Source: Gammaproteobacteria bacterium (GTDB taxonomy: Bacteria > Pseudomonadota > Gammaproteobacteria > Chromatiales > Chromatiaceae). Taken from it: DNA of 64,000 bases. Of the stretch, positions 657 to 35,944 are shown one piece after another (position 1 is the first letter of the stretch; each line of letters begins with the position of its first letter). The position numbers and the translations under genes are program-made. The stretch is taken from positions 22,197 to 86,196 of the forward strand of contig RZZN01000010.1 of the NCBI GenBank assembly GCA_009929855.1. The letters are read 5' to 3'. Below the pieces are notes generated by a model. The model made no database searches, was not told the DNA's origin, and saw only the letters and a list, made by a program, of their open reading frames with translations.

Positions 657-2041
657 CGCAGCGCCTGGGCGATGCGACGCAGCGTCGCATCCTTGCCGAC
701 CAGCCAGAGTGTCTCGTCGATCCCGGGCGAGGCGGCGCGTCCGACGATCGCCACCCGCAAGGGCTGGGCGACCTTGCCCATGTTGACGCCCAGCTCCTCG
801 GCGACACGCTCGACGACGTGCTTGAGCTCGGCGGGCGTCCAATCCTCGAAGGACATCAGCTCGAAGGCAGCGGCGAGCTGCTCCAGGGACTCGCGCGCGA
901 CCGGGCGTAGATGTTTCTTGGCCGCGCCCTCGTCATATCCTTCGAAATCGCGATAGAAGAAGGCACTGATCTCGGCGAGCTCGACCAGTGTCTTGGCCCG
1001 CGCGGCCTGCACCCTGACGACCTCGGCCAGATCCGGACCGGTCGCTGGATCGATGCCGAGCCGGCCCATGTGGGGGCTGAGCAGACGGGCGATCCGCGCC
1101 GGATCGGCATGCTGGAGATATTGTTGGTTGAGCCAATCGAGCTTGTCGGTGTTGAAGGCGGAGGCAGCCCGATTGACATCACCGATGGAGAACAGCTCGA
1201 TCATCTCATCGAGCGAGAAGATCTCCTGATCGCCATGCGACCAGCCCAGACGCACCAGATAGTTCAGCAGTGCCTCGGGCAGATAGCCCTGATCGCGATA
1301 GGCGATGACGCTGACCGCGCCATGACGCTTGGAGAGTCGCGCCCCATCGTCGCCGAGGATCATGGGCACATGCGCATAGCGCGGCACCTCGCGCCCGAGC
1401 GCACGCAGGATGTTGATCTGACGCGGGGTATTGTTCAGATGATCGTCTCCGCGGATGACGTGGGTGATCCCCATGTCGGCGTCGTCCACGACCACGCTCA
1501 GATTGTAGGTCGGCGCGCCGTCGCTGCGGCGGATGACCAGATCATCGAGCTCCTCGTTGCTGAAGACCACGCGCCCACGGATCATGTCATCGACGACCAC
1601 CACCCCCGTGTCCGGGTTCTTGAAACGGATGACATGGGGCTCGTCGGCGCTGACCTCCTTGCCACGACAATGACCGTCATAGCGCGGCTTGAGACGCTCG
1701 GCCATCTGCTTCTCGCGCAGCTGCTCGATACGCTCCTTCGGACAGGCGCAGCGGTAGGCAAGCCCGCGCTCGAGCAACTCATCGATGATTTGGTCGTAGC
1801 GCTCGAACCGCTGGGTCTGATAGAAGGGCCCCTCGTCATACTCCAGCCCGAGCCAGGTCATGCCCTCCAGGATGGCGTTGACCGACTCGGTCGTGGAGCG
1901 CTCCAGATCCGTGTCCTCGATCCGCAACACGAACTGCCCGCCGTGTTTGCGCGCGAAGAGATAGCTGAAGAGTGCGGTACGGGCACCGCCGACATGCAGA
2001 TAACCGGTCGGGGAGGGGGCGAAGCGGGTACGGACGGTCAT
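626..2041 (-). CDS. gltX: Glutamate--tRNA ligase
   Basis: [25 protein letters not shown] (HIGH-type motif) and ARLSKRHG (KMSKS-type). Confidence 0.96.
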
Positions 2042-2126
2042 GGTCGTGCGCTAGGGTCTCGGTGATGGTGGATCGCACGATTCTAGCAGAGCCCCGCCCA
2101 ACTGCCCGCTTGTTCGGTCACGGCCG

Positions 2127-2528
2127 ATGGGGTATGTTCGAGCCATGAGATTCTCCGAGACAGAGCACGGCGACGGCTACGCGATCGAGGCCTATGGAAC
2201 CGAAGGCATCCTGATCGGCGGGCGTCGTTACACCGGCGGGCTGATCATCAGCCCAGAGCGGATTCAACCGGACTGGGGCCCCGCGCACGTTGCCGATCTG
2301 CGGGCCGCGCATCTCGATGAGCTGCTCGCCGTCAGCGACCCGGGCGCGCCGCAGGTGATCATCCTCGGCACGGGCGCGGCGCAGGTCTTCCCCCCCGCGG
2401 ACATGCTGCGCGCGATCGCGCAGTGCGGCATCGGCTTCGAGATCATGGATACCGGTGCGGCCTGCCGCACCTACAATATCTTGATGTCCGAGGGGCGGCG
2501 CGTGGTCGCCGGGTTGCTGCCTTGGTGA
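2127..2528 (+). CDS. Mth938-like domain (DUF498) protein
   Basis: Small protein with GGRRYTGGLIISPERIQPDW and VIILGTGAAQVFP motifs typical of the family. Confidence 0.8.
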   Translation: MGYVRAMRFSETEHGDGYAIEAYGTEGILIGGRRYTGGLIISPERIQPDWGPAHVADLRAAHLDELLAVSDPGAPQVIILGTGAAQVFPPADMLRAIAQCGIGFEIMDTGAACRTYNILMSEGRRVVAGLLPW

Positions 2529-2602
2529 CCGCCCGCCAGACGGCCGCTGAGGCGCGGCGAGCGGTTTGACGAACAGCAACGACGAGCGACGACCACTCAA
2601 CC

Positions 2603-3313
2603 ATGGATCGACACATCCTATTGTCAGTGCTCGGGATTGCCGTCCTCGGCTTCCTCGGGATGCTGCTGCTGATGCCGGCCACGATCGAGGACGAAACCCC
2701 GCGTCTGCCCTGGTTGATCAGCCAGGACGCGCAGGGACGGTCGCAGGTCTTCGGTTTCACGATCGGCGAGACCCGCCTGGCGGAGGTGCGCGAGCTCTTC
2801 GGCGAGGACGGCAAGATCAACCTCTTCCAAGACCTGGCCGTGCCCGAGCGCTTCGGTGTCGAGGCCTTCTTCGAGCAGATCCATCTCCAACGGCTGCGCG
2901 CCGACTTCGTCTTCGCGCTGGATGTCGACCAGGACACGCTCGAGCAGATGTATGCGCGCGGTCTGCGCATCAGCCAGCTCGGTAGCGGCAGTCGCAAGGT
3001 CAAGCTCGACCCGAGCGACATCAACCTGCTCTTGGAACGACCGATCCGTGGCATCAGCTATCTGCCCAAGGCGAGACTCGACGAGGCGCTCATCGAGCAG
3101 CGCTTCGGCACCCCGACGCAACGGCTCACCGAGCCCGGTACGGGTGTCGTGCACTGGCTCTATCCCGAGCGTGGGATCGACATCGCACGCGACGGTAGCG
3201 GCCATGTGGTCATCCAATACGTCAATCCAGCCGACTTCGAGCGGCTGATGCAGCCGCTCGAGGATGCGCTGAGGGCGGCCGGACAGGTGGAGCAGGACCG
3301 CGCCGCACCCTGA
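2603..3313 (+). CDS. Conserved hypothetical membrane-anchored protein
   Basis: N-terminal TM segment, 236 aa, intact ORF. Confidence 0.6.
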   Translation: MDRHILLSVLGIAVLGFLGMLLLMPATIEDETPRLPWLISQDAQGRSQVFGFTIGETRLAEVRELFGEDGKINLFQDLAVPERFGVEAFFEQIHLQRLRADFVFALDVDQDTLEQMYARGLRISQLGSGSRKVKLDPSDINLLLERPIRGISYLPKARLDEALIEQRFGTPTQRLTEPGTGVVHWLYPERGIDIARDGSGHVVIQYVNPADFERLMQPLEDALRAAGQVEQDRAAP

Positions 3314-3485
3314 CCCGCCGCTGCCCCGGCATGCGTCTGACCGGATCAGGATGGGGCAGGGCTTGATGGAGTCGGAGTGGGCGCGCGCGTCGCTCGCCCT
3401 CACGCAACGCACCCATGTTTCGACCATGTCTCGCAACGCCCATGTCGTCGCGCCCAGTCCAAGCACTTGCACGCGGAGACCATCG

Positions 3486-4478
3486 ATGCCCAAACGCTCA
3501 CTCATCCTTGCGCTCGCCTGGTTGTCCATCACACTGACCGCGAGCATGAGCGCCCTCGCCGAACCCTTGGTCAAGGTGCGCTTGGTCACCGACTGGAAGG
3601 CACAGGCACCCCACGGCGGCTTCTACCAGGCCAAGGCGCGCGGCTTCTATGCCGAGCAGGGTCTCGCGGTCGAGATCATCCAGGGCGGACCCGCGGTGAA
3701 CGTGCCACTGCTCCTCGGTGCCAATCAGGCCGACTTCGGCATCGGCTCCAACAGCTTCATCCCACTCAACATCGTCCAGGCCGGGATCCCGGTGGTGGCG
3801 GTCGCCGCGATCTTTCAGAAGGATCCACAGGTTCTCATCACGCACCCGCGCGAGGACGTTCGCGCGATCGCCGACATGGTAGACAAGCCGATCATGATCT
3901 CGGATGCGGGTGTCGGCAGTCACTGGGTCTGGTTGAAGGCCAGGTTCGGCTTCACCGATCGTCAGATCCGCAAGTACACCTACAATCTTGCGCCGTTCCT
4001 CGCCGATCCCTCGGCCATCCAGCAGGGCTATGTCACGAGCGAACCCTACGAGATCGAACAAGCGAGTGGGATCGCGCCCCAGACCTTCCTGCTCGCCGAT
4101 GAGGATTATCCCTCCTATGGGAACCTGATCCTGGCCTCGGCCACGCGCATCGAGCAAGACCCGGAGATGGTGCGTGCCTTCGTGGCCGCCTCCATCGCCG
4201 GCTGGCGGGACTATTTGACCGGCGATCCGACCCCTGGCAACGACTTGATCAAGACCGACAATCCAGAGATGAGCGACGCGTTGCTCGCCCATGCCATCGC
4301 CGAGATGAACCGCCATGCGCTCGCGACCGCCGCCGATGCCGCGAGCGCTGGGATCGGGGTCATGACCGACGCGCGCTGGCAGTCATTCTTCGAGACCATG
4401 TCGAGCCAGGGCATCTATCCCCCAGACCTCGAGTGGCGACACGCCTACTCGCTCGACTTCCTGCCGGGCACGCCATGA
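3486..4478 (+). CDS. ABC transporter substrate-binding protein (NMT1/THI5-like)
   Basis: Signal peptide then VRLVTDWKAQAPHGGFYQAKARGFYAEQGLAVEI; start chosen at MPKRSLILALAW. Confidence 0.88.
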   Translation: MPKRSLILALAWLSITLTASMSALAEPLVKVRLVTDWKAQAPHGGFYQAKARGFYAEQGLAVEIIQGGPAVNVPLLLGANQADFGIGSNSFIPLNIVQAGIPVVAVAAIFQKDPQVLITHPREDVRAIADMVDKPIMISDAGVGSHWVWLKARFGFTDRQIRKYTYNLAPFLADPSAIQQGYVTSEPYEIEQASGIAPQTFLLADEDYPSYGNLILASATRIEQDPEMVRAFVAASIAGWRDYLTGDPTPGNDLIKTDNPEMSDALLAHAIAEMNRHALATAADAASAGIGVMTDARWQSFFETMSSQGIYPPDLEWRHAYSLDFLPGTP

Positions 4479-5215
4479 CCCACGAGCTCCAGCTGGATCG
4501 GCTGGGCAAGACCTTTCAAAATGGCACGCCGGCCTTGGATGAGATCAGCGCCCATATTGGCGCTGGATCCTTCGTGGCCCTACTGGGTCCCTCGGGCTGT
4601 GGCAAGAGCACCGTGCTGCGACTGATCGCGGGGCTCGATGAGCCGACCCGCGGTCGGGTGCTCTGGCCGAGTGGCCGCGCCGCGCTCGGATTCGTGTTCC
4701 AGGACCCGACGCTCATGGCCTGGGCCAGCGCGACGCGCAATGTATCGCTGCCGCTCGATCTGGCCGGACGCCCGGCGCCCGAGGCGCGTGCGCGCGCACT
4801 CACCGCGCTCGAGAAGCTCGGGCTTGGCGCGTTTGCCGAGTCATTGCCTCGCGAGCTCTCGGGCGGCATGCGCATGCGGGTCTCGATCGCCCGCGCGCTG
4901 GTTGCCTCGCCCGATGTCCTGCTCATGGACGAACCCTTTGCCGCGCTCGACGAATTCACACGCTCACGGCTCAACGAGGATCTGTTGAGGCTCTGGGCCG
5001 AGCGCGGCTTCACCGGCATCTTCGTCACCCACTCGGTCTTCGAGGCGGTGTACCTGGCGCAGCGTATCCTCATCCTTGGCGGCCGACCTGGGCGTCTGGT
5101 CGCCGACCTGACGAACCCGGCGCCCTATCCGCGCGGACGCGACTATCGGACATCGGCTGGCTTCAATGCCCTGGCGCGCGAGATCCTGGATGTGCTGGAG
5201 GGGGTCTCCGGATGA
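4475..5215 (+). CDS. ABC transporter ATP-binding protein
   Basis: Walker A GPSGCGKST, signature LSGGMRMRVSIARAL, Walker B DVLLMDEPF. Confidence 0.93.
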   Translation: MTHELQLDRLGKTFQNGTPALDEISAHIGAGSFVALLGPSGCGKSTVLRLIAGLDEPTRGRVLWPSGRAALGFVFQDPTLMAWASATRNVSLPLDLAGRPAPEARARALTALEKLGLGAFAESLPRELSGGMRMRVSIARALVASPDVLLMDEPFAALDEFTRSRLNEDLLRLWAERGFTGIFVTHSVFEAVYLAQRILILGGRPGRLVADLTNPAPYPRGRDYRTSAGFNALAREILDVLEGVSG

Positions 5216-5994
5216 TGCGTGCACTGCGCGTGATTCTGCCGATCGGGCTCTTCGCCGCCTTGATCTGGTTTTGGGGATGGGCGGTGGAGCACTGGCGGAT
5301 CCCACCCTTCATCCTGCCGCCGCCGCGCGCCATCCTCGAGGTCTTCGTCAACGATGCCCAGTCGCTGCTCGGCTCGGCCTGGACCACCTTCGGCATCACG
5401 GCCACCGCCTTCGTGCTGGCGGTGGTCTCTGGCACGGCACTCGCCACACTCTTCGCCTCCAGCCGACTCGCCGAGGCCATGCTCTCGCCCTATGCGGTCA
5501 CCCTGCAGGTCACCCCCATCATCTCCATCGCGCCACTGGTCATCGTCTGGGTCGGACTCGATCAGGCCTGGCTCGCCGTGCTCATCCTTGCCTGGATCAG
5601 TGCATTCTTTCCGGTCCTAGCCAGCGCCACCGCGGGACTCAAGGCCGTGGATCCCAATCTTCGCGATCTCTTCAGACTCTATCGAGCCAGCTTCCCGCAG
5701 ACCTTCCGCCGACTCCTGGTCCCCTCCGCGCTGCCGTATCTGTTGGCCGGCATCAAGACCGCCGGCGGACTCGCGCTGATCGGGGCAGTCGTCGCCGAAT
5801 TCGCCGCCGCCTCTGGCAATACCAACGGGCTGGCCTGGCGGATCCTCGAGGCCGGCAACCGGCTCCAGATCGCCAAGATGTTCGCCGCACTCATCCTACT
5901 CGCGCTCATGGGCATCCTGATCTATGCCGTGCTGAGCTTCATCGAGTGGCTACTCCTCCATCGTTGGCACGGCGACACCCGCTCTCGCGCCTGA
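5212..5994 (+). CDS. ABC transporter permease
   Basis: Hydrophobic BPD_transp_1-type protein overlapping the ATPase gene by 4 bp. Confidence 0.9.
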   Translation: MMRALRVILPIGLFAALIWFWGWAVEHWRIPPFILPPPRAILEVFVNDAQSLLGSAWTTFGITATAFVLAVVSGTALATLFASSRLAEAMLSPYAVTLQVTPIISIAPLVIVWVGLDQAWLAVLILAWISAFFPVLASATAGLKAVDPNLRDLFRLYRASFPQTFRRLLVPSALPYLLAGIKTAGGLALIGAVVAEFAAASGNTNGLAWRILEAGNRLQIAKMFAALILLALMGILIYAVLSFIEWLLLHRWHGDTRSRA

Positions 5995-6140
5995 CCGCCC
6001 CGGGCACCCAGACGCGCGGGAGCCCGACAGCCCAAGAAGCCCTGAAACCTGGGATTGCCGGATTGCACTCGGCCATCCCACCGCGGCCGATGTCCTGGTG
6101 CTGTCCTGGCGATTGACGGCGTGCAGTCGGGGCAGGCGAT

Positions 6141-6456
6141 GATCCTCACTCGGGGCCGGGAGGCCCCGACTCCCCTGGGGCCGCAGGCCACGAGTGGAGT
6201 CGGGGCGTCCTCGCCCCGAGGAAGGAGGGTTTCAGCGTGACCCCAAAGGTCGAGCGATCATGGGGCGTCACATTGCTCTACTGGCGCTCGAAGATCCTCA
6301 CTCGGGGCCGGGAGGCCCCGACTCCCCTGGGATCCGGAGAGCCAGCTCCCCTGGGGCCGCAGGCCACGAGTGGAGTCGGGGCGTCCTCGCCCCGAGGAAG
6401 GAGGGTTTCAGCGTGACTCCAAAGGTCGAGCGATCATGGGGCGTCCTCGCCCCGGG
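6141..6456. repeat. Two ~130-170 bp near-identical tandem copies of a GC-rich palindromic repeat unit
   Basis: gatcctcactcggggccgggaggccccgactcccctgg...aggaaggagggtttcagcgtga[c/t]cccaaaggtcgagcgatcatggggcgtc appears from 6141 and again from 6293. Confidence 0.9.
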
Positions 6457-7032
6457 CTAGCGTGCGAGCATGGCGCGGACTGGGCCAAAGCTGCGACGAT
6501 GCTCCGGACAGGGTCCGAGTACGCGCAAAGCGGCGAGATGGGCACGGGTGGGATAGCCCTTGTGCATGGCGAATCCGTAACCCGGATGGCGTCGGTCGAG
6601 CTCGCACATCAATTGATCGCGGGCGACCTTGGCGAGGATGGAGGCGGCCCCGATCGCTGGATCGGAGCGATCCCCACCAACCAGCGCGCGGGTCTCGCAG
6701 GCGAGCGCTGGACAATGCTTGCCGTCGACCAGGGCCAGTGTCGGGGCCGCGGTCAGACCCGCAACGGCACGCTGCATGGCGAGCAGTGAGGCCTGGAGGA
6801 TATTGATCCGATCGATCTCCTCGGCGCTCGCCCAGGCCACCGACCAGCTCAGCGCGCACTCACGGATGCGTTCCGCCAAGGTCTCCCGACGGCGCGCGCT
6901 CAGGGTCTTCGAATCGGCCAGCCCGGCGATCGGCTGACGTGGATCCAGGATGACGGCGGCCGCGCTCACTGGCCCGGCCAAGGGTCCACGGCCCGCCTCG
7001 TCCACCCCAGCGATCAGCTCGGCGAGCCTCAT
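6457..7032 (-). CDS. rnhB: Ribonuclease HII
   Basis: [15 protein letters not shown] motif. Confidence 0.95.
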
Positions 7033-8195
7033 GGATGAGCCGCCGGGCGGGCCTGTCCGATCAGCTGCAGGACCGCCTCAGCCGCCGAGTCCGCGGCACC
7101 CTGTCGCAGCCTCAGATGGATCCGTCGATACTCGTCCTGAATCGCGGCGACCCGCTCTGGAGCCGCGAGAAAGGCCAGTAATGCCGCCGCCAGCAGATCG
7201 GGGCGGCAGTCACCCTGAATGAACTCGGGCGCCAGCTCGCGTCCGGCCAGGATGTTGGCCATGGCGATCTGTGGAACCTTGACCAGATCGAGCTGCTTGA
7301 CCAGGTGATAGGTGAGTGGATGCACCCGATAGGCGACCACCATGGGTCGCTTGGACAAGAGCGCCTCCAGTGTCGCGGTCCCAGACGCGGTGAGCACCAG
7401 GTCGGCGGCCGCCAGTGCGAGGCGACTCTGGCCATCCAGCAGGGTCACGGGCAGCCGTGGTGCGCATCGATTCAGCGCTTGGGTGAAGCGCTCGCGCAGT
7501 CCAGCGTGCACCAATGGCACGATGAAACGCAGCTCGGGGCGCAGCGCATGACATCGCGCGGCCGCCTCGATGAAGGGTTCGGCCAGACGCGCGACTTCCC
7601 CCACTCGACTTCCCGGCAGCAGGGCGATGAGTGTCCCCTGGATCGGCAGCCCCAGTGCGCGTCGCGCGCCATCGCGATCGCTCTCGAGCGGGATCTCGTC
7701 GGCGAGTGGATGTCCGACATAGCGCACCGCGACACCCGCCTCGCGCAGAAAGGGCTCCTCGAACGGGAAGATGCTCAGCATCAGATCGACAGCGCGCCGA
7801 ATCGCCTTGACCCGACCGGCACGCCAGGCCCAGACGGTCGGGCTGACCAGATGTACGGTGCGGATACCACCCTGGCGCAGGCGCCGCTCCAACCCCAGGT
7901 TGAAGTCGGGCGCGTCGACACCGATGAAGACATCGGGTGGGTCGTTGCGGAAATGGCGCAGCAGGCCTCGCCGCAGTGACAGGAGCTCGGGCAGATGCGC
8001 CAGGACCTCGGTCAGACCCATCACCGAGAGTCGTTCCATCGGAAAGAGTGTCTCGCACCCCTCGGCCAGCATGCGTGGCCCGGCCACCCCGACGAAACGG
8101 ACCTCGGGAGCGCGTGCGCGGATGGCGCGCACCAGCGCGGCCCCCAATAGATCACCGGAGGGCTCGTTCGCGACGATCCCGATCCGCAACATCAA
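7029..8195 (-). CDS. lpxB: Lipid-A-disaccharide synthase
   Basis: [10 protein letters not shown]-type start, [13 protein letters not shown]; lpxA-lpxB order. Confidence 0.95.
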
Positions 8196-30241: not shown

Positions 30242-30403
30242 GCTGAGCGTCACCCGCGTCCTCACCAACCGCGCCACCACCGCTCGAGCGCGACCTGCGC
30301 TGACTCGGACCACGCCAGTCCGAATCCCACCAGCGCGCGGGACACAGCGCCGCGCGCGCCTCCCAACGCATCCTGGATCGGCGCTCGAGGGATCTTGACT
30401 CAG

Positions 30404-31112
30404 GTCAAGTGTTGGATCGAGCGTCACGTCCAGTTCGAGACCGCGGCCACCGATATCGGCTATGGATTGCGTCCCGAGCACCCGCTGGAGATGAAGGCGG
30501 CCAACGCCGGCAGCGGGGCCAAAAGTGCATCGAGCTTCGAGCAATTCGCCAAGCAGGTCGAGCCCTATACGCTCGATTTCGTCTCCGAGCTCTCGGGCGT
30601 GCCACGCGAGAACCTGCTGCGGCTCGGATCGCTTTCCCTTCGAGGGCGCGGTCGTCGACGCCAGTGGCAATCGTTACGGCAACCACGGAGCGCCGACTTT
30701 GGCTTCCATGTCCAAAAAGGGCTCTTCGAGGAATACCGGCTCTTCAACAGCGGGCCCGACATCCCGAAGAAGGGCCACGAGATGGCCGAGCTCGAAACCT
30801 ATCACCAGGTGCGCGGCTTGCGCTAGCCGGTGGTCAACGGCAAGTAGACGCTGTGGCGTTTCCGCGAGGGCTACGACCCCCATGTGCGCACCATGAATCC
30901 CGAGGTCGCCAAGGGCGATGTCTATTTCTACGGCAATCCGAATGGCCGTGCCAACATCATCTTCGCCCCCTACGAGCCACCGGCCGAGAGCCCGGACTCT
31001 GAATACGACCTCTGGCTCTGCACCGGCCGGGTGCTCAAGCACTGGCATTCGGGCTCGATGACCCGACGCGCGCCCGAGGTGCATCGCGCGGTGTCCGACG
31101 CGGTGATCTACA
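30404..31112 (+). pseudogene. napA: napA (periplasmic nitrate reductase large subunit) remnant
   Basis: WIERHVQFETAATDIGYGLRPEHPLEM...[gap]...VQKGLFEEYRLF...YHQVRGLR*PVVNGK*TLWRF...[35 protein letters not shown]; in-frame TAG at 30824 and 30845. Confidence 0.88.
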
Positions 31113-31351
31113 TGAGCAAGCATCCGATCGACAAATACAACATCGATCTGCGCCAGAACGGCTGTCTGAAATGTCACAGCCCGGCCACTTACGAGATCAA
31201 CAAGGCGCCCAAGGTCGCCGACAATCATTTCTTCGATCGCGATGGCAACCTGTTCGAGACCATCGCCCCGCGGCGCTACTTCTGTACCCAGTGCCATGCT
31301 GCCCAGGCCGGCGCCATGCCGCTGGTCGAGAACGTCTTCGACAAACGTTGA
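31113..31351 (+). pseudogene. napB: napB C-terminal remnant fused in frame to napA
   Basis: [41 protein letters not shown]...[24 protein letters not shown]; two CxxCH motifs. Confidence 0.85.
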
Positions 31352-31389
31352 CCGCCGTCAGACCCATCCGAATGCAGGTGTGCCATGCC

Positions 31390-31577
31390 CGATTCATTTC
31401 ATCTCGATGGATTACACCAAGCAGGAGTCGCGCAGCTCACAGGTGCATCAGGATGGCGAGGACGCCGGGCTGACATGCATCGATTGTCACAAGGGGATTG
31501 CCCATCGTCTGCCGATGCAATACGACCCCGAACAGGACGCGCCCGGTCGGAGCGTCGTCTACACCAGTCAGCGCTAG
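31390..31577 (+). pseudogene. napC: napC C-terminal remnant
   Basis: FISMDYTKQESRSSQVHQDGEDAGLTCIDCHKGIAHRLP. Confidence 0.8.
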
Positions 31578-33102: not shown

Positions 33103-33819
33103 TCATGACGGCTCTTTCGGTTGGATGGTCCGCGCGCCGCGCCGCGTGGCGACACCAACAGGCACCGCCGACGCGATGAGCTGGGCACAATCAGCGCGCA
33201 GCACGCAACGATCACAGGCCGGGCGCGTTCGACAGACCGACTTGCCCTGCGCCACGATGAGGGCATGGTACTCCTTGAGCACAGGCACGTCAGGACCGAG
33301 CGCCGACTCGAAGCGCCGACGGATCGACTCATAGCCGGCCGCGGCCTCGATCAGGCCGAGTCGCGCAAAGAGTCTTCGGGTATAGGCGTCGACGACGAAG
33401 ACCGGTCGCTCGAAGGCATAGAGCAGGATGTCATCCGCGGTCTCTGGACCGATCCCAGTGATGGCCAACAGCCACTCGCGCAGAGACAGGGTGTCCAGTC
33501 GAGCGAGCTCGGCGAAGCCACCCACCTGCAGATAGGCCGCGCAGAAGGTCGTCAGACGTCTGGCCTTGACATTGAAATAGCCCGCTGGGCGCACCGCCTC
33601 GGCGAGGACGTCCGGATCGAGCGCGAGGATCGTCTCGGCCGCGAGCGGGATGCGCGCACGCAGACGATCCAGTGCACGCTCGACATTCGACCAGGCGGTA
33701 TTCTGGGTGAGGATCGCGCCGACCATGACTTCGAATGGGGTCTCGGCGGGCCACCAGTCTTGCGGGCCGAAGGCCCCGAGGAGCTGGCCATAGAGTGCGC
33801 GCAGCCGAGCCGACTCCAT
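33103..33819 (-). CDS. Endonuclease III domain (HhH-GPD) DNA repair protein
   Basis: PFEVMVGAILTQNTAWSNVERAL, LLAITGIGPETADDILLYAF...VDAYTRR, C-terminal Cys cluster CRTRPACDRCVLRADC. Confidence 0.9.
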   Translation of the reverse strand: MESARLRALYGQLLGAFGPQDWWPAETPFEVMVGAILTQNTAWSNVERALDRLRARIPLAAETILALDPDVLAEAVRPAGYFNVKARRLTTFCAAYLQVGGFAELARLDTLSLREWLLAITGIGPETADDILLYAFERPVFVVDAYTRRLFARLGLIEAAAGYESIRRRFESALGPDVPVLKEYHALIVAQGKSVCRTRPACDRCVLRADCAQLIASAVPVGVATRRGARTIQPKEPS

Positions 33820-33916
33820 CACGCCCCGCCTCGCGCGATACCCTGCCGGTCGGTCCGTCCGCGCGCGGCCTGGCCCCGCCAGTGCATGCAAGCGATCACC
33901 ATCATCAGGGCGCGGC

Positions 33917-35158
33917 TCAGACCGGATCGACCCGGGTCACCACCACGACGCCCTGCTCGGAGACATAGAAGCGCTCGCGGTCGGCCTTCAGATTGAGGCC
34001 GATCTGGCTCTGCGCTGGGATCTCCACATCCTTCTCGATGATGCAGTTGCGCAGATGCGCGCCCTCACCCACGACCACGCCATTGAAGAGGATGGACGAC
34101 TCGACGATGGCGCCATCATTGACCCGGACTCGTGGGAACAGGATCGAGTGATTGACCCCGCCGCCACTGATGACACTGCCGGCGGCCAGCATGGAATTGA
34201 CGAAGATGCCCTCGTTTCCGCTGGTCCTGCCTGGCACCGTGCGCGCCGGCGGATACTGGCCCTGATAGGTGTGGATGGTCCAGTCGGCTTGATAGAGATC
34301 CAACGGTGGATCGGTGCGCAACAGGGCCATGTTGGCCTGGTAATAATCATCGACCGTGGCCAGATCGCACCAGTACCGATCCGGGGTCACCCGACCACGC
34401 TGCTGACCGAAACGGTAGGCCATGACCCGGGCGCTATGCGTCAGGGGCGCGATGATATCGAGCGCCAGATTGCAATCCTCGCCGGCGCGGCCATCGCGAT
34501 GCGCCTGATCATGGCGCCGCATCTCATCGAGCAGGAAGCGCCGATCGAAGAGATAGACACCCATGGTCTGTAATCGGTCGGCCTCGGCCGGCGCGGACTC
34601 GTCGCCCTCGTCATCCACCACCGGGCGACGGATCGCACCGATGCGATCGGACTCGGCCAGCTCGACCTGCGCCTGCGTCGCGGACCCCTGGCCAGTGACC
34701 GCGCGCACCGCGACCGTGACCTCGGCGCCGCATTCTCGATGCGCCCTGACCAGCTCGGCATAGTCCATGCGGTACACGCAACCGCCATCCAGCACCAGGA
34801 TCTGGCGTGCCTGGCTACGCTCGATCAGATAGCGATTCTGACGAATCGCGTCGAATGGCCCCGCGTACCACTCCTGGCTCTCGCGCATCTGGGGTGGCAC
34901 CGGGGTGATGAACTCAGCGAGCTCTGGATTGAAGATCGACCAGCCATCACGCAGGTGTTTGTGCAGCGAGTGACTCTTGTATTGAGTCAAGACCAGCACC
35001 TGACGCAGCCCTGAGTGCAGACAGTTGGCGAGGGTGAAATCGATGACCCTGAACTTGCCAGCAACCGGCACCGCGGCCTTGGTGCGCTGCTCGGTCAGGG
35101 GCTCGAGCCCGGCGCCGCGATCGATGGCCAGGATGAGGATGAGTGTATCGGCTGCCAT
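33917..35158 (-). CDS. GlgC-like protein (ADP-glucose pyrophosphorylase family), probably catalytically divergent
   Basis: GKFRVIDFTLANCLHSGLRQVLVLTQYKSHSLHKHLRDGW, YWCDLATVDDYYQANM, C-terminal left-handed helix; canonical catalytic motifs replaced (see findings). Confidence 0.88.
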   Translation of the reverse strand: MAADTLILILAIDRGAGLEPLTEQRTKAAVPVAGKFRVIDFTLANCLHSGLRQVLVLTQYKSHSLHKHLRDGWSIFNPELAEFITPVPPQMRESQEWYAGPFDAIRQNRYLIERSQARQILVLDGGCVYRMDYAELVRAHRECGAEVTVAVRAVTGQGSATQAQVELAESDRIGAIRRPVVDDEGDESAPAEADRLQTMGVYLFDRRFLLDEMRRHDQAHRDGRAGEDCNLALDIIAPLTHSARVMAYRFGQQRGRVTPDRYWCDLATVDDYYQANMALLRTDPPLDLYQADWTIHTYQGQYPPARTVPGRTSGNEGIFVNSMLAAGSVISGGGVNHSILFPRVRVNDGAIVESSILFNGVVVGEGAHLRNCIIEKDVEIPAQSQIGLNLKADRERFYVSEQGVVVVTRVDPV

Positions 35159-35164
35159 ACCGCA

Positions 35165-35944
35165 TCACCCCCGCGCCGCCAGATCGATGATGTGCTTCAT
35201 GTCCCGCACCGCCCGATCGAGACCCGAGAAGATGGCGCGGGCGATGATCGAATGACCGATGTTGAGCTCGCGCAGCCCGGGGATGGCGGCGACCGCCTTG
35301 ACATTGTGGTAGTCCAGGCCATGTCCGGCGTTGACCTGCAAGCCGAGCGAGCGGCCCAACCCGACGCCTTGCCGGATCCGCGCCAAGGCGCTGGCCCGCT
35401 CGGCGGGGGTCAAGGCGTCGGCATAGTGGCCTGTGTGGATCTCGATCACGGGCGCCCCGACCGCATGCGCGGCCTCGATCTGGCGCGGATCGGCGTCGAT
35501 GAAGAGCGACACCCGCACCCCGGCCGCGGCCAGGCCGGCGCAGAAGTCGCGCAGATAGGGCTGATTGGCGGCCACGTCCAGACCGCCCTCGGTGGTCAGC
35601 TCTTCACGCCGCTCGGGCACCAGACAGCAGTCGGCGGGCTGGATCCGCAAGGCGATCTCGCCCATCTCGCGGGTCGCTGCCATCTCCAGATTCATACGGG
35701 TCTGGAGGATGCCGCACAAGAGCTCCACGTCGCGCTCCTGGATATGTCGGCGATCCTCGCGCAGATGCAGTGTGATCGAATCCGCGCCGGCCTGCTCGGC
35801 CGTCAGGGCAGCCTGGATCGGCTCCGGATACCGCGTACCACGGGCCCGGCGGATAGTGGCGACATGATCGATGTTGACGCCGAGCAGAACCCCGGCCGCG
35901 CTTGACTGTGTCACTGTTGGAGACTCCGATTCACACTCACGCAT
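35165..35944 (-). CDS. pdxJ: Pyridoxine 5'-phosphate synthase
   Basis: [24 protein letters not shown]; start may be internal. Confidence 0.95.

Follow-up and report, generated by a model that had tools for sequence, protein, structure and literature searches.

The window analysed here (the whole stretch of 64,000 nucleotides, from a member of the Chromatiaceae) carries on its minus strand a single intact open reading frame that begins with ATG, contains no internal stop and encodes 413 amino acids (Table 1). We call the product dead GlgC2, that is, a catalytically dead GlgC paralogue, for the reasons given below. Only a few bases separate the stop codon of pdxJ from the ATG of glgC2, which makes it likely that the two genes are co-transcribed and coupled. 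The gene order lepA..rnc-era-recO-pdxJ-glgC2-nth is conserved in many Chromatiaceae, and the locus is situated away from glgB and glgA. PdxJ acts in the synthesis of pyridoxal phosphate (PLP), which is an in vitro activator of E. coli GlgC (PMC6773804); the adjacency of pdxJ is probably a coincidence of operon position. Elsewhere in the window (30395-31577, plus strand), a C-terminal (molybdopterin-binding) piece of NapA runs into NapB in one short open reading frame and is followed, in another frame, by a NapC/NirT fragment; these look like what is left, compressed or broken, of an operon for periplasmic nitrate reductase (nap).

Table 1. Features of the glgC2 locus, with positions in the window
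Feature	Position	Strand	Basis
Dead GlgC2 (catalytically dead GlgC paralogue), 413 aa	33917..35158	-	ORF, family profiles, AF2 model, fold match
Former nucleotide-binding loop LAGGRGxRL, now LAIDRGAGL; GG and R32 gone	35105..35131	-	Alignment; lost in 65/65 core orthologues
R25, K27, R37 (E. coli R40, K42, R52): effector phosphate-site Arg residues and K42, kept	35048..35086	-	Invariant 65/65
Q59 (E. coli Q74), allosteric trigger residue, kept	34982..34984	-	Alignment; role PMC3691274
W97-Y98 (E. coli W113-Y114), allosteric trigger loop, kept	34865..34870	-	W113 role PMC3691274, PMC5474683
Former AGDHIYKxDY, now LDGGCVYRMDY; D142>G, interface D148 kept as D132	34760..34792	-	PMC5474683, PMC10461462
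Former FVEKP glucose-1-phosphate motif, now AIRRPV; E194 and K195 gone	34619..34636	-	Alignment
YWCD: metal ligand D265 (E. coli D276), kept	34364..34375	-	Alignment; role PMC5474683
K376 (E. coli R386), effector site, conservative R>K	34031..34033	-	Invariant 65/65
pdxJ, immediately upstream of glgC2	35165..35944	-	Stop a few bases before glgC2 ATG
HhH-GPD base-excision-repair (Nth-like) gene, downstream neighbour	33103..33891	-	Neighbourhood order

The protein is certainly a member of the GlgC family, which it matches along its whole length (NCBIfam PRK00725, E=7e-120; Pfam NTP_transferase and LbH domains). An initial annotation, made from the letters of the sequence, had proposed a full-length ADP-glucose pyrophosphorylase (AGPase) fold in an otherwise intact frame; the frame is indeed unbroken, and the AF2 model (pLDDT 91.5, pTM 0.91) has the complete GT-A and left-handed beta-helix fold of the GlgC superfamily, its best match in the PDB (by Foldseek) being the E. 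coli AGPase 5l6v (TM 0.89). The protein misses the curated glgC cut-offs (315.7 against 424.9 bits for TIGR02091; 400.6 against 470 for PRK00725), which are passed both by the canonical GlgC1 of the same genome and by a motif-intact GlgC2, L163 (515.7 and 478.8 bits, respectively, with TIGR02091). Besides the TIGR02091 score, the NTP loop GXGXRL, the complete metal-ligand pair (of which D276 alone is kept) and E194-K195-P that would mark a catalytic GlgC are all lacking. Identity with GlgD (TIGR02092) is ruled out by a score of 158.4 bits against a curated cut-off of 236.6. Proteins like this one are likely to carry the annotation glucose-1-phosphate adenylyltransferase, so that statements about 'two or three glgC genes' would overcount the enzymes. 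PMC4301808 counts two glgC genes in Allochromatium vinosum and, in the passages concerned, says nothing about catalysis; expression of the present gene in that organism was looked for in the literature with no usable result.

Residues are numbered here as in E. coli GlgC, by alignment to that protein, unless the protein's own numbering is specified. The stretches singled out in the initial annotation (LAIDRGAGLEPLT, LDGGCVYRMDY, AIRRPV and YWCDLATVDDYYQANM) are all present, and the loss of the substrate motifs described there stands: G27 is replaced by I, G28 by D, R32 by G, D142 by G, E194 by R and K195, which binds glucose-1-phosphate, by P, the columns of E194-K195-P thus holding R-P-V. That account lacked what has been retained, including K42, the other metal ligand (D276) and the regulatory arginine residues. 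The kept residues include R40, K42, R52, Q74, W113, Y114, R130, D148, W274 and D276, with a lysine in place of R386. In AGPase, the literature treats R32 and D142 as critical and D142 and D276 as the metal ligands (PMC5474683), so that half of the metal site has gone. Effector-site roles are attributed to R40, R52 and R386 (PMC6773804), roles in the allosteric signal or trigger to Q74 and W113 (PMC3691274; for W113 also PMC5474683), and D148 is a residue of the subunit interface (PMC10461462).

Orthologues are found in Thiocapsa, Thiorhodococcus, Chromatium, Thiocystis, Marichromatium, Lamprocystis, Thiodictyon and Candidatus Thiosymbion among the named Chromatiaceae, and in many further genomes of that family. 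By these matches, the source of the window belongs to Thiocapsa or stands close to it. In the core clade of 65 distinct full-length sequences (mean identity 66%, minimum 54%), the GG pair and R32 are missing from every member and D142 from 59 (six keep it), and E194-K195 has gone from essentially all, with one alignment-dependent E-K string remaining. All 65 share R40, K42, R52, Q74, P103, W113, Y114, R130, D148, D276 and the lysine at 386, in a clade in which 100 columns (25%) are fully invariant, rising to 44% among ancestrally conserved columns. Thus, loss has struck the substrate residues and spared the allosteric and interface residues tested, which is the combination expected of a regulatory AGPase subunit. 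Among 103 ancestrally conserved positions, 21 have been lost (including G27, G28, R32, D142, H143, E194, K195, S212 and F240, the set shifting slightly with sampling), the kept set includes R52, Q74, P103, W113 and D148, and the rest are intermediate. Neither chance nor sequencing error comes near to explaining motif loss on this scale, and an error or frameshift is ruled out by the recurrence of the same losses in dozens of independent genomes.

The reading frame is intact in nearly all orthologues. One copy (L191, at 1716-7140 in its own sequence, from genome G167) is locally rearranged, in three pieces with the C-terminal half present twice, and in Chromatium okenii LaCa (L046) and in G199:C14 the open frame lacks the N-terminal c. 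40 residues; the copy in C. okenii DSM 169 (L040) is complete. For 45 pairs within Thiocapsa, dN/dS was 0.12, compared with 0.04 for GlgC1 of the same genomes and 0.11 for PdxJ, which indicates that dead GlgC2 is not decaying. It is hardly credible, then, that we are dealing with a slowly decaying, functionless duplicate, as might be suggested by a dN/dS three times that of GlgC1 and by the few broken copies (the G167 fragments and the N-terminal losses in G199 and C. okenii LaCa): the diversity of the 65 sequences, their intact frames, the invariant columns and the dN/dS value itself all speak against it, and on the last two we reject it. The initial annotation had taken this to be a non-catalytic protein maintained by selection, a view that inconsistent motif loss among orthologues would have undermined; the alignment across the Chromatiaceae revealed consistent loss, which together with the dN/dS and the intact frames supports it. 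Judged from these comparisons, residues that bind ATP and glucose-1-phosphate have been lost throughout the clade while purifying selection continues.

From this, dead GlgC2 would be unable to make ADP-glucose. A residual, low-activity AGPase with shifted motifs is conceivable by reference to half-altered relatives (the L016 type and L146) that have lost only the EKP motif and could keep some activity, but it is very improbable for the present protein, in which all three substrate motifs have gone, including R32 and D142 (critical according to PMC5474683). Somewhat less improbable, yet still doubtful, is a re-purposed enzyme whose altered pocket would carry out a different reaction on a different substrate by way of the kept D276, K42, Y114 and W274. 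The conservation of those four residues would fit such an enzyme, as would the retention of D142 in six core sequences and the fair uniformity of some pocket replacements (P43>A in 98%, T117>P and A118>F in most). Against it, the G-loop glycines, R32 and E194-K195 have gone, and what stands in place of E194-K195 varies in both sequence and length, which is not the picture of a conserved active site newly formed.

The trees place the protein in a second GlgC lineage, GlgC2, apart from the canonical GlgC1 encoded beside glgB. A strong GlgC2 match was present in 26 of 274 genomes sampled across the Gammaproteobacteria, and most of the sequences fetched from this class-wide set are motif-intact, with several altered. 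The motif-intact forms (such as L163, L246 and L248, from other Gammaproteobacteria) belong to the same lineage as dead GlgC2, differing from it in their intact substrate motifs and having in common with it the GlgC2-specific residues H48, L55, K67, R70, D71 and E316 (numbering of the protein itself). The best explanation would be that dead GlgC2 descends from a motif-intact, once-active AGPase. In the IQ-TREE analysis, monophyly of the core clade was well supported (UFBoot 99) and that of GlgC2 as a whole poorly (UFBoot 25); in a larger tree, the GlgC2 grouping had a FastTree support of 0.95. A six-member group in genus g8 (UFBoot 100) has lost EKP and kept the G-loop, and is nested with motif-intact sisters at 98; further losses of substrate motifs were seen in L170/L174, in L173 and in a side clade of other families. 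As these trees have it, the substrate motifs have been lost several times independently and apparently half-dead intermediates survive (Dollo counts of the losses are rough, and we place no reliance on exact numbers). Adjoining the core clade is L146, which has lost EKP and kept GG, R32 and D142; this suggests that the sugar-phosphate (EKP) motif may have been the first to go, the position of L146 being moderately supported (UFBoot 67).

A second GlgC in the same genome, which the initial annotation had recommended looking for, was found together with a third, both motif-intact: GlgC1 (C20, beside glgB) and GlgC3 (C180). There are also three GlgA proteins. GlgC1 is present in all the core-clade genomes checked except G014, G052, G099 and G127, each of which has GlgC3; in G183, GlgC1 is represented only by a contig-edge fragment, and GlgC3 is present. 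A single fixed partner is ruled out, since neither paralogue occurs in every genome (GlgC1 is absent from G014 and G127, GlgC3 from G047 and G187). A catalytic paralogue, as a regulatory subunit would need, thus accompanies dead GlgC2 in its own genome and in all the core-clade genomes checked, though not in part of the side clade.

We put at about even the chance that dead GlgC2 serves an active AGPase as a non-catalytic subunit or partner that senses an effector; the case for a pseudoenzyme is strong, and the partnership is the part we infer. The protein would still bind a phosphorylated effector at the site formed by R40, R52, R386K and R130, would join catalytic GlgC1 or GlgC3 in a mixed oligomer and, by analogy with GlgD and the plant large subunits, would tune the activation of the catalytic GlgC in that oligomer. 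Against this reading stand the position of the gene, apart from glgB and glgA, the want of any one universal partner, and the side-clade genomes described below; Q74, W113 and D276, moreover, could have been kept for folding.

The side clade bears on a further reading. In four of its genomes with motif-altered GlgC2, no other GlgC was found (G349, 98% complete; G237, 93%; and two incomplete ones, G279, 78%, and G030, 75%); there was no glgA match in G349, G279 or G030, and one weak glgA-like match in G237. The strict rule that a dead copy occurs only where an active GlgC exists therefore holds in the core clade and fails for G349 and G237 (G030 and G279 being incomplete), and we do not use it as proof. 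If the absences are real, regulation of a GlgC cannot be the role of the motif-altered copies in G349 (L265) and G237 (L266). In the G349 copy the motif loss is partial, D142, K195 and D276 being kept, and this protein may be less than fully dead. W113 has also been lost from GlgC2 copies of the partner-less side clade, so the role there may differ from that in the core clade. These genomes might be taken to favour a stand-alone metabolite sensor, a homo-oligomer binding AMP or a sugar phosphate at the kept site whose target would be not a GlgC but, for instance, some different glg enzyme or a protein of a neighbouring pathway, as might the invariance of the effector-site residues and the linkage of the gene to the era-recO-pdxJ operon and not to glg genes. 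We think this unlikely for the core clade, where a catalytic GlgC is always present and where the trigger and interface residues fit the GlgC tetramer and are invariant, W113 being lost where partners are lacking; this last objection is weakened by the loss of W113 in some relatives that do have GlgC1. Two genomes (82% and 90% complete) yielded no full GlgC apart from a motif-intact GlgC2, which we count in favour of the reading preferred above. In G111, which has a motif-intact GlgC2, GlgC1 (L208, G111:C12) is split into two open reading frames by an internal TAG, possibly a reverse replacement of GlgC1 by GlgC2, or a sequencing error.

Proteins of the kind that we propose, a non-catalytic partner of an active enzyme, are known already (GlgD, the plant large subunit and GMPPA), and the first two, named as precedents in the initial annotation, are apt as analogies. 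GlgD of Firmicutes is a GlgC paralogue without activity that accompanies a catalytic GlgC and modulates it; it is stated to be absent from Proteobacteria (PMC9093745). Dead GlgC2 is likewise a seemingly inactive paralogue in a genome with catalytic GlgC, the role being known for GlgD and read here from sequence. It differs from GlgD in belonging to another branch (158 bits with the glgD model against 400 with the proteobacterial GlgC model) and in lying outside a glg operon. Its loss of the G-loop, D142 and K195 goes further than what is known for the potato tuber large subunit. That subunit, too, is non-catalytic and modulatory and arose by duplication with the fold kept (PMC3691274), but the origin of dead GlgC2 is independent. 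Animal GMPPA is also a non-catalytic sugar nucleotidyltransferase paralogue, regulating the catalytic GMPPB (PMC11228364), although it is eukaryotic and of a different (GDP-mannose) family. Targeted literature searches, with partial coverage of the literature, yielded no report of a dead GlgC branch with living intermediates in Proteobacteria.

Proteobacterial AGPases are treated as homotetramers (PMC9093745, PMC3691274). It is possible, if in our view slightly more doubtful than not, that Gammaproteobacteria have repeatedly evolved a non-catalytic regulatory AGPase subunit from GlgC2, independently of plants and Firmicutes, giving mixed enzymes in bacteria described as homotetrameric; this would be a third independent origin of the split between catalytic and regulatory subunits. 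The glycogen store of purple sulfur bacteria is tied to anaerobic dark metabolism, and a conserved dead GlgC would add a layer of control to this key step of carbon storage. As intact, partly altered and fully altered relatives coexist, the order in which catalysis is lost as a regulator evolves can be tested, and if living species do represent active-looking, half-dead (with EKP the first to go) and dead stages, one can test directly how an enzyme turned into a regulator.

Finally, we draw attention to a sporadic fourth type of GlgC (L222, L223, L224, L225, L228 and L229), 44-46% identical to GlgC1, which has FGADHIYRMN, and an HEK whose K is not followed by the usual P.
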